DNA from: Candidatus Bipolaricaulota bacterium
Lineage (GTDB): Bacteria > Bipolaricaulota > Bipolaricaulia > Bipolaricaulales > Bipolaricaulaceae
Direction of reading: 5' to 3'
DNA length: 44,923 bases
Assembly: GCA_938083225.1 (NCBI GenBank)
Contig: CALKCH010000029.1
Location: 1-44,923 of the forward strand
Below are positions 39,359 to 42,145 of the stretch, piece by piece. A model generated the notes under the pieces. That model was not told where the DNA came from, ran no database searches, and was given only the letters and a program-made list of their open reading frames with translations. Each line of letters opens with the position of its first letter. The first letter of the stretch is position 1. Made by a program: the position numbers and the translations under genes.

Positions 39359-39804
39359 CGCCGCTCCAGGGCCAAAAGCCGCTCCTTCCACGCCAGTCCT
39401 GGGCCGAATCCCCCGATATCACCTTTTCCCACCACGCGGTGACAAGGAACCAAGATGGGCAGAGGATTTTTGGCCATGGCCTGGCCCACAGCCCGGGCCG
39501 CTTGCGGCCCACCCGTCCGGCGGGCTAACTCCCCGTAGGTCACAGTTTCCCCGTATGGAACCGTCCGAAGCTCCGCCCACACCTGCCGAAAGAACGGAGG
39601 TCCCGTGAGCTTCACCGGCACCGTGAACGCTGCTCTTTCCCCTTGGAAATACTGGTCGAGTTCTTGCCTGAGCTCCTGGAGGAGGGGATGGGAAAAAAGG
39701 GTCTCCGCAGGCGGCTTTCCAGGGAAACAGAGGGCCACAAGACCCCGTTCTTCCCAAGCAGCGTAAAAAATTCCCCAGACCGTTGACACCTTTCCCCAGG
39801 GCAC
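39331..39804 (-). CDS. ogt: Methylated-DNA--[protein]-cysteine S-methyltransferase
   Basis: VWAELRTVPYGETVTYGELARRTGGPQAARAVGQAMAKNPLPILVPCHRVVGKGDIGGFGPGLAWKERLLALE (PCHRVV active site). Confidence 0.95.
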   Translation of the reverse strand: MPWGKVSTVWGIFYAAWEERGLVALCFPGKPPAETLFSHPLLQELRQELDQYFQGERAAFTVPVKLTGPPFFRQVWAELRTVPYGETVTYGELARRTGGPQAARAVGQAMAKNPLPILVPCHRVVGKGDIGGFGPGLAWKERLLALERRYKAKFSPR

Positions 39805-39809
39805 AAGAG

Positions 39810-39839
39810 AGCATAAGCCTTGGCCCTTCCGGATACAAT
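39810..39839. promoter_or_regulatory. Overlapping divergent promoters (ogt, minus; DUF protein, plus)
   Basis: Minus: TTGTAT (39838-39833)-N17-TATGCT (39815-39810)-N5-GTG 39804. Plus: TACAAT (39834-39839)-N6-GTG 39846 (weak -35). Confidence 0.4.
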
Positions 39840-39845
39840 GGGGCC

Positions 39846-41165
39846 GTGCGGGCGTTAGCCTTGGGTTGGGACCTCATTGGACCGGATCTGGTCAGTGCCG
39901 ACTTTCCCAGCGCTGATTCTCTTGGGAGCTTCGACGTGGTGCTGTTCGACCCTCTGCCCCTCCCGGCCCTCTGGCAACCCTACGCGGAACTCTCGCCGGA
40001 CGGGACTTATCGCCTCTATCCCCACCGGGATTTTGGACTTTCTCGTGCCCTGGAAAAACTGTTCCAATCTCGCCAACGCGAGGCGGAAGATCTCCTTTGG
40101 CGGGGAGGGGGCATTTTGGTGGTACGTGTACGGCCAGCCGACGAGGGCGTGATCATCGGAGGAAACCCACCCCACAAATTAGAGCCCTACAGTGTTCTTC
40201 CCAAAGCCTCCCTTGTCTCTGGCCCCCACCATCTGGCGTTGCCTCAAGGGCTCAGGTTTTGGCCTCGCCGCGGCTCGGACGTGAAGGTGGTAGACCCCTT
40301 GCATCCCTTGGCCCCCTACCTCCAGCGCTTCTCCTCCCAAGGGTACGAGGCTGTGCTCACCACAGCTCTGGGCGTTCCCCTTTCGGCCTTCGGCCGGGTG
40401 TTGGCCCAAAACCGCGTGGGCGATCCGCTGGCCTTGGACCTCCCCGTGGGTTCAGGGCGGATCCTCTTCCTCCCCGCGTTCTCCGGCGCCGACCCCCGTG
40501 AGGCCTGGGAACTGTTGCGGCCAGGATTGGCGGAACTCCTCTCCCTGCCCTTGCCAGAAACCGCGCCCGCATGGCTTTCTGGCTACGAGCTTCCCGGAGA
40601 AGAAGAGCTGCGGAAGCGCGAGGAAGAGCTAGCCCAGGAGAGGGAGCGGCTAGATCGCCAGGAAGAAGAGGTGGGGGAGGTCCGCCGAAAGTTTTCTCTC
40701 TTCAAAGCTCTCCTTTACCCCCGGGGAAAAGGAGCTCTGGTACACGCTGCTCAAGCAGCGTTTACGCACCTTGGGTTCCAGGTCAGCTCCCAAGCTTTTT
40801 CCGATTCTTTCCCTGCCGAAAGCTCGGAGGAAGCGTTCCACGTGCGGGTGGGTTATTCTCTGTTTGGTCCCGTGGGTCCGGCGGAACATCGGGCCCTCCT
40901 TTTGGCCGTAGATAAATTGCGTCACGAGGAAGGCCGGGAGGTGCGCGGCCTTCTTCTGTGTTTGGCTCAGCCTGAGCTTGATCCGCGGCGTCGCGGGCCG
41001 CAGTGGGAGGAAGCTGTGGAGCGAGCCAGCCGGGATCACCGCTTTGCCTTGGTTTCCGCCTACGATCTTTTCCGAGCAGTGGGTCAGGTCTTGGCCGGCG
41101 CTGACCCCAAGGAAATCCGGAAAGCTTTGGCGGAAGCGGAGGGACCGTGGAAGCCCCGGTTCTAA
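39846..41165 (+). CDS. Uncharacterised protein: N-terminal alpha/beta domain, short coiled coil, C-terminal restriction-endonuclease-like domain (putative, apparently degenerate)
   Basis: GTG 39846 after TACAAT. Coiled coil EEELRKREEELAQERERLDRQEEEV; C-terminal KALLYPRGKGALVHAAQAAFTHLGFQV...EEGREVRGLLLCLAQPELDPRRR...RFALVSAYDLFRAVGQVLAG. Confidence 0.7.
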   Translation: MRALALGWDLIGPDLVSADFPSADSLGSFDVVLFDPLPLPALWQPYAELSPDGTYRLYPHRDFGLSRALEKLFQSRQREAEDLLWRGGGILVVRVRPADEGVIIGGNPPHKLEPYSVLPKASLVSGPHHLALPQGLRFWPRRGSDVKVVDPLHPLAPYLQRFSSQGYEAVLTTALGVPLSAFGRVLAQNRVGDPLALDLPVGSGRILFLPAFSGADPREAWELLRPGLAELLSLPLPETAPAWLSGYELPGEEELRKREEELAQERERLDRQEEEVGEVRRKFSLFKALLYPRGKGALVHAAQAAFTHLGFQVSSQAFSDSFPAESSEEAFHVRVGYSLFGPVGPAEHRALLLAVDKLRHEEGREVRGLLLCLAQPELDPRRRGPQWEEAVERASRDHRFALVSAYDLFRAVGQVLAGADPKEIRKALAEAEGPWKPRF

Positions 41166-42145
41166 GAACTGGGCTCATCCTTGGCCTCCTCGCTTTGCCT
41201 CTTGCCGCCTGGCTCAGCCCAAAAGCTGCGCAAGCCCTGAGAGCTCGGCAACACATCCGGCCCGAAGGTCCGTCCACCCACGGGAAAAAGGCGGGCACGC
41301 CCACCATGGGCGGCGTGGTCCCCCTCTCCCTGGTCCTCCTGGGCACCGGCATCCTTTGGATCCAAGCTGGCCCGGATTGGCCCAGCGCCTTTGCCCTAGC
41401 GTCCACCGTTTTGGGAAGCCTGGTGGGGCTCCTCGATGACCTACGGTCTCAGCGAAAACAGAGTTCTACTGGGTTTTTCCCCCACCAGACCATCCTCGCC
41501 CAATTTTTGGCTGCTCTCTCCCTAGTTTTTTTAGCCACACGCTGGCCGCAAACAGTGCGCTTCCCTTTTTCCAAGCTAAGTGTAATCCTTCCTCTTTGGG
41601 CTTGGATTCCCCTTTTGCTCCTGGGATTCTGGGGTACGGTGAACAGCGTGAACCTGGCCGATGGCATGGACGGTTTGGCCACCGGCCTCTTTCTTCTTGC
41701 CCTCCTGGGCTTGGCTCCGTTGTCCTTGGGTTCAGCAAAGCTCTTGGCCATGAGCTTTTTGGCCGGGGGAGCCGGGCTCGGGTTCCTGTGGGCCAACGCC
41801 TACCCCGCTTCCGTCTTCTTGGGAAACGTGGGGTCCATGGGCCTGGGCGGGTTTCTCTTCGGTTTGGCCTGGAGCTCCGGAGGCATCCTTTTTCTTCCGG
41901 TTGTGGGCGGGGTGTTCGTCATCGAGGCCCTCTCCGACATCCTCCAGGTGGCCAGCTATAAATTGACCGGGGTGCGGCTCCTTAAAATGAGCCCGTTTCA
42001 CCACCACCTGGAAGACGCACCTGTCCCTTGGCCCCATCGCCTGAAAAGTCCGTATTGGCCAGAACCAAAGGTAGTGACGCGCCTTTGGGTTCTGGGAGCC
42101 TTTTTCTCTTTGCTGGGTTTTTTTGCTAGCTTGTGCCGGCCTTGA
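41147..42145 (+). CDS. mraY: MraY-family phospho-N-acetylmuramoyl-pentapeptide transferase homologue with altered catalytic motif
   Basis: HGKKAGTPTMGGVVPL, GLLDDLRSQ, NSVNLADGMDGLATG, YPASVFLGNVGSMGLGG, VFVIEALSDILQVASYKLTGVRLLKMSPFHHHLE. Confidence 0.88.
   Translation: MEAPVLRTGLILGLLALPLAAWLSPKAAQALRARQHIRPEGPSTHGKKAGTPTMGGVVPLSLVLLGTGILWIQAGPDWPSAFALASTVLGSLVGLLDDLRSQRKQSSTGFFPHQTILAQFLAALSLVFLATRWPQTVRFPFSKLSVILPLWAWIPLLLLGFWGTVNSVNLADGMDGLATGLFLLALLGLAPLSLGSAKLLAMSFLAGGAGLGFLWANAYPASVFLGNVGSMGLGGFLFGLAWSSGGILFLPVVGGVFVIEALSDILQVASYKLTGVRLLKMSPFHHHLEDAPVPWPHRLKSPYWPEPKVVTRLWVLGAFFSLLGFFASLCRP

Follow-up and report, generated by a model that had tools for sequence, protein, structure and literature searches.

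The window analysed here, a 44,923-nucleotide contig of a Candidatus Bipolaricaulota bacterium, encodes an MraY in which two mutually contacting catalytic residues have been replaced together: the Mg2+-binding Asp of the GDxGS motif by Asn (Asn227) and a conserved Lys by Thr (Thr115), the contact between positions 115 and 227 being inferred from the Aquifex structure paper. The variant is real, clade-wide and out of the ordinary, and represents a novel form of an enzyme already known rather than a system of a new kind; no description of such an MraY was found in the open-licence literature searched. MraY proteins with Asp at position 227 are called D-type below, those with Asn N-type. This protein, an orthologue of the D-type MraY found in related genomes, is probably the MraY that works in this organism, with a rewired charge pair at the Mg2+. 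Coordinates are collected in Table 1.

Table 1. Features of the mraY locus in the window (aa, amino acids).
Feature	Position	Strand	Remarks
hyp460	39783..41165	+	460 aa; immediately precedes mraY in three families of the phylum
N-type mraY	41147..42145	+	332 aa, GTG start; TIGR00445, PF00953, AlphaFold2 model
Asp97-Asp98, DD motif, retained	41435..41440	+	from the alignment
ACC codon, Thr115	41489..41491	+	Lys or Arg in canonical MraY (Aquifex K133, B. subtilis K116)
Asn169, retained in all sequences	41651..41653	+	Aquifex N190, DPAGT1 Asn185
AAC codon, Asn227	41825..41827	+	Mg2+-coordinating Asp in canonical MraY (Aquifex D265, E. coli D267, B. subtilis D231)
His285-287, loop E HHH motif, retained	41999..42007	+	from the alignment

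The mraY reading frame encodes a membrane protein. The motif at codon 227 reads VFLGNVGSMGLGG and the segment following the DD motif reads STGFFPHQTILAQF, with codon 115 in the context GFFPHQT. Alignment to solved MraY chains, combined with the published numbering, places Asn227 at E. coli D267, Aquifex D265, B. subtilis D231 and human DPAGT1 D252, and Thr115 at Aquifex K133, B. subtilis K116 and DPAGT1 K125; both replacements had been noticed by an earlier, sequence-only reading and both hold, as does its remark that the other motifs are intact (DD 97/98, N169, D172, D175 and H285-287). Eight residues are catalytically important in B. subtilis MraY (D98, D99, K116, N171, D174, D231, H289 and H290; PMC5039524), two of which, at positions 227 and 115, are changed in the window protein, while the other six are intact and are invariant across the aligned sequences. 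In loop E (42011-42060), HHHLE is followed by about 11 residues that MraY of other phyla lacks. This insertion is common across Bipolaricaulota, and its presence in D-types too led us to reject it as the cause of the N-type change.

As judged by the equivalog model, the predicted fold and the gene order, the protein is still an MraY. It scores 194.2 bits against the NCBIfam equivalog TIGR00445 (cut-off 192.05) and, with the other N-types of family f1 scoring between 192.3 and 197.2 bits, the cut-off is passed by the window protein and three other N-types; the independent N-type of genome G082 falls slightly under it, at 184.8 bits. A match to PF00953 is present, MraY signature 1 (KxGTPTM) is recognised by PF10555 at 20.6 against 20.1 bits, and the HHH motif is invariant. 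The AlphaFold2 model (pLDDT 88.6) has an MraY as its best match in the PDB (entry 9zno, TM-score 0.83); the top 24 matches are all MraY, with DPAGT1 next, so that the model has the MraY fold. NCBIfam, Foldseek and the motifs all place the protein with MraY rather than with WecA/TagO or DPAGT1-like transferases. The three-Asp set formed by the DD and GDxGS motifs is incomplete, the DD being retained and the third Asp being Asn227, and the protein is therefore called an MraY variant; it is kept as MraY because orthology, fold and model agree and because this Asp is not strictly required in DPAGT1. As a working MraY it would make lipid I from UDP-MurNAc-pentapeptide and C55-P with Mg2+.

The solved MraY structures of Aquifex aeolicus (PDB entries 4J72, 5CKR and 8CXR), E. 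coli (8G01) and Hydrogenivirga (9ZNO) share the fold, ten-helix layout and pathway position of the window protein, as well as the DD, NxxDGxDG and HHH motifs, but have the Mg2+-binding Asp and a conserved Lys/Arg where the window protein has Asn and Thr, and are without the extra residues after HHHLE, which the D-types of the phylum also have. The D-type MraY proteins of sister Bipolaricaulota genera (for instance those of G016, G020 and G029) are orthologues that lie after the same upstream gene and are 45-57% identical to the window protein, yet retain Asp227 and Lys115 in every case. Human DPAGT1 (GPT), of the same superfamily, is about 15% identical by fold alignment and provides in its D252N mutant the laboratory equivalent of Asn227 (PMC6218659); unlike the window MraY, it keeps its Lys (Lys125) and has a CL9 domain, and its substrates are UDP-GlcNAc and dolichyl phosphate.

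The closest named match to the window is a MAG of Candidatus Acetothermia, the former name of Bipolaricaulota. MraY loci were gathered from the phylum and aligned together with 79 loci from outside it, chosen by similarity, giving 166 sequences in all. Within the phylum, Asp with Lys is found in 62 sequences, Asn without Lys in 24, Asn with Lys in one and Asp without Lys in none; outside the phylum all 79 loci have Asp, accompanied by Lys (43) or Arg (36). Of the 24 sequences with Asn and no Lys, 19 have Thr in place of the Lys, 3 have Met, 1 has Leu and 1 has Asn, while the sole sequence with Asn and Lys is that of G051, of family f7. Within the window's genus, each of the seven genomes that yielded the gene has the N-type, as have ten genomes of genus g5, including the closed genomes G011 and G021, and genera g4, g6, g7, g11 and g12 of the same family, so that the pair of changes extends over the window's genus and six other genera of one family; genera g2, g3, g8, g9, g10 and g13 of this family are D-type. 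In G017 (genus g11) the Asn and the Thr are located on two separate contig fragments, and the states of G082 and G051 are each known from one draft genome. Counted over the phylum, Asn is present at position 227 in 25 other Bipolaricaulota genomes, encoded by AAC as well as AAT; of the genes with an unbroken reading among them, 23 lack the Lys as well. The sequence-only reading had named Asn being a common functional variant in this clade as an outcome that would count against it; common it is, and presumably functional. Two irregular cases were encountered. G028 (95% complete) contains no mraY, but a selective loss was rejected, since the adjacent gene hyp460 is absent too, which points either to a gap in the assembly or to the segment having been lost in its entirety. 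G090 contains two D-type mraY genes (L183 and L184) on different contigs, each beside hyp460, either a duplication or a strain mixture.

A salt bridge links D265 to K133 in Aquifex MraY (PMC9768162), and both residues adjoin the proposed lipid-phosphate site (PMC4790310). In DPAGT1 a single Mg2+ is ligated by Asp252 and Asn185; the D252N mutant is five times as active as the wild-type enzyme, which its authors credit to a more electropositive Mg2+ and a more electrophilic beta-phosphorus, while D252A retains 7% activity and mutation of Lys125 to Ala, Glu or Gln leaves less than 2.2% (PMC6218659). These figures lead to the prediction that Asp with Lys and Asn with Lys are allowed, Asn without Lys is conditionally allowed and Asp without Lys is disallowed, compared with observed numbers, over all 166 sequences, of 141 (Lys or Arg), 1, 24 and 0, respectively. 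The DPAGT1 result may not transfer to MraY, because E. coli MraY D267 mutants are reported to be fully inactive and B. subtilis D231N has only a small residual activity (PMC4902027). Even so, the statement in the sequence-only reading that the Asp is essential or nearly so proves too strong in view of D231N and of DPAGT1 D252N. Of the options it had listed, an altered mechanism is the best supported. With both charges lost, the local net charge would be kept; the side-chain oxygen of Asn227 and the conserved Asn169 would still hold the Mg2+-pyrophosphate, and C55-P would attack UDP-MurNAc-pentapeptide directly, in one step. Asn without Lys would be allowed if the gain from the Asn offsets the loss of the Lys. 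On these grounds we infer that the N-type enzyme is catalytically active and electrostatically compensated.

A scan of all well-conserved positions showed 227 and 115 to be the only ones altered throughout the N-types, with G051 as the exception at 115. Among the 42 positions with a conservation of 97% or more in D-types, the independent N-type G082 (family f2) differs at these two only; had its departure besides 227 fallen at random on the other 41, the chance of its hitting position 115 would be about 1 in 41. When the two columns are left out of the alignment, the resulting tree requires three changes for the group with Asn and no Lys. The tree of the adjacent gene allows a single origin of the f1 N-types, with weak support (63/33), and such an origin is not rejected by the MraY data (p-AU 0.263). 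There were thus at least two independent double changes, perhaps three, plus the single change in G051; the third could instead be a reversal in g2, g3, g9 and g10. An independent-pairs test (three pairs agreeing, none opposing, one not differing, p 0.25) is consistent with coupling, with too few events for significance. The expected order of events would be Asp to Asn first, tolerated with the Lys present, followed by loss of the Lys, Asp without Lys being the forbidden state. The same order is open to another reading, to which we give a minor but real share of probability, namely that the MraY works but its residue pair decays with no compensation involved, Asp changing to Asn and the partnerless Lys then drifting to any neutral residue. 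The four different replacements (Thr, Met, Leu and Asn) do resemble a released site, and the Asn with Lys of G051 is a possible first step; however, Thr is uniform over 19 sequences from three genera, and in DPAGT1, where K125 mutants have less than 2.2% activity (PMC6218659), the importance of the Lys does not depend on the Asp.

Other positions are altered in parts of the N-type clade only: T171, which becomes Ala or Ser, and E260 and V264, both in helix TM9. E260, the counterpart of E. coli E287, is otherwise invariant but is replaced by Met or Thr in eight genomes of g5, while V264 is Asp in all seven g1 genomes; because no other N-type has it, V264D was rejected as a general compensating acid. 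Such additional clade-specific changes would fit an enzyme whose specificity has shifted, for example to another sugar donor, lipid carrier or metal, with the residue pair following. We hold this to be improbable, since the uracil- and sugar-side residues K48, T53, D172, D175 and the HHH motif are retained and the pathway around the enzyme is kept: the relatives, closed genomes included, contain at least four Mur-ligase-type proteins (MurC-F type), MurG, one transpeptidase and MurJ, and same-family D-type sister genera have the same pathway and the same place for the gene. The different substrate suggested by the sequence-only reading accordingly finds no backing. G000, the window's own genome, which is incomplete (87%), contains MurJ and two Mur ligases only, MurG and the transpeptidase not being found in it. 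Only one PF00905 transpeptidase is present in each of G001, G004, G011, G012, G016, G021 and G082, so that their penicillin-binding sets are unusually small. The lineage keeps its peptidoglycan pathway, and the N-type appears to be the cell's only MraY.

Since both of the lost residues are regarded as catalytic in B. subtilis MraY (PMC5039524), the gene might also be an inactive relic or a paralogue, with lipid I being made by another enzyme. This is very improbable: the window mraY is the sole PF00953 gene found in G000 (a draft of 61 contigs, 0.92 Mb), and the search for a second, canonical MraY found none in that genome or in the closed relatives G011 and G021. The hypothetical gene hyp460, which overlaps the mraY start by 19 nucleotides, adjoins it upstream in families f1, f2 and f7, in D-types and N-types alike, and this common neighbour marks the N-type as the orthologue rather than an additional copy. 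For hyp460 itself, searches of Pfam and NCBIfam gave no match; it is a possible partner in peptidoglycan synthesis. The location of mraY outside a mur/fts cluster, pointed out by the sequence-only reading, is correct but not unusual, as mraY follows the same gene in the D-type relatives too; moreover, in the closed genome G021 the cluster reads murD-ftsW-murG-murC-murB-ftsQ-ftsA-ftsZ from its open reading frames (murG and two Mur ligases confirmed by search), without mraY, so this arrangement is normal in these bacteria. Many genomes of the same family contain a second PF00953 protein, DPAGT1/AglH-like and not an MraY (for example G021:C1:609271), with AGFNG replacing DGLDG; both the Asp (FIGDVGT) and the Lys (WVKALLP) are retained in it, which makes the change specific to MraY. 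In G021 and G004 (L134 and L138) this protein has an AGFNGLE motif and is nearer to eukaryotic and archaeal GPT than to WecA. The dN/dS values are 0.10-0.50 in N-type pairs and 0.27 in D-type pairs, which supports a working gene under purifying selection, and the remaining motifs are intact over many genera. We therefore read the N-type MraY as neither a dead enzyme nor a paralogue nor a new substrate class.

A base-calling or assembly error at codon 227, conceivable in a draft genome, is refuted by the recurrence of the Asn in 25 other genomes, closed ones included, with both codons. Deamidation of the Asn to Asp in the cell has a negligible likelihood, given that it leaves the coupled loss of the Lys unexplained.

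MraY is an essential antibacterial target, the mechanism of which is debated between a two-step reaction, with this Asp as nucleophile, and direct attack in a single step. An MraY that lacks the Asp by nature and is conserved in that state would speak against a nucleophilic role for this residue. The odds seem to us even that peptidoglycan synthesis throughout the clade is carried out by an MraY needing neither the Mg2+-binding Asp nor its Lys partner, the pair having been swapped as a unit in two steps to give a second natural catalytic configuration of the superfamily. If true, the Asp would be excluded as a covalent nucleophile, and inhibitors contacting D265 or K133 (tunicamycin, mureidomycins, sphaerimicin) would be weakened more than capuramycin and carbacaprazamycin, which are reported to have no D265 contact. 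A double-mutant prediction follows for the well-studied enzymes, in which Asp to Asn would relieve the loss of the Lys. The finding suggests that the antibiotic contacts at D265 and K133 are not evolutionarily fixed, and the N-type MraY offers a natural experiment on the working of this antibiotic target.
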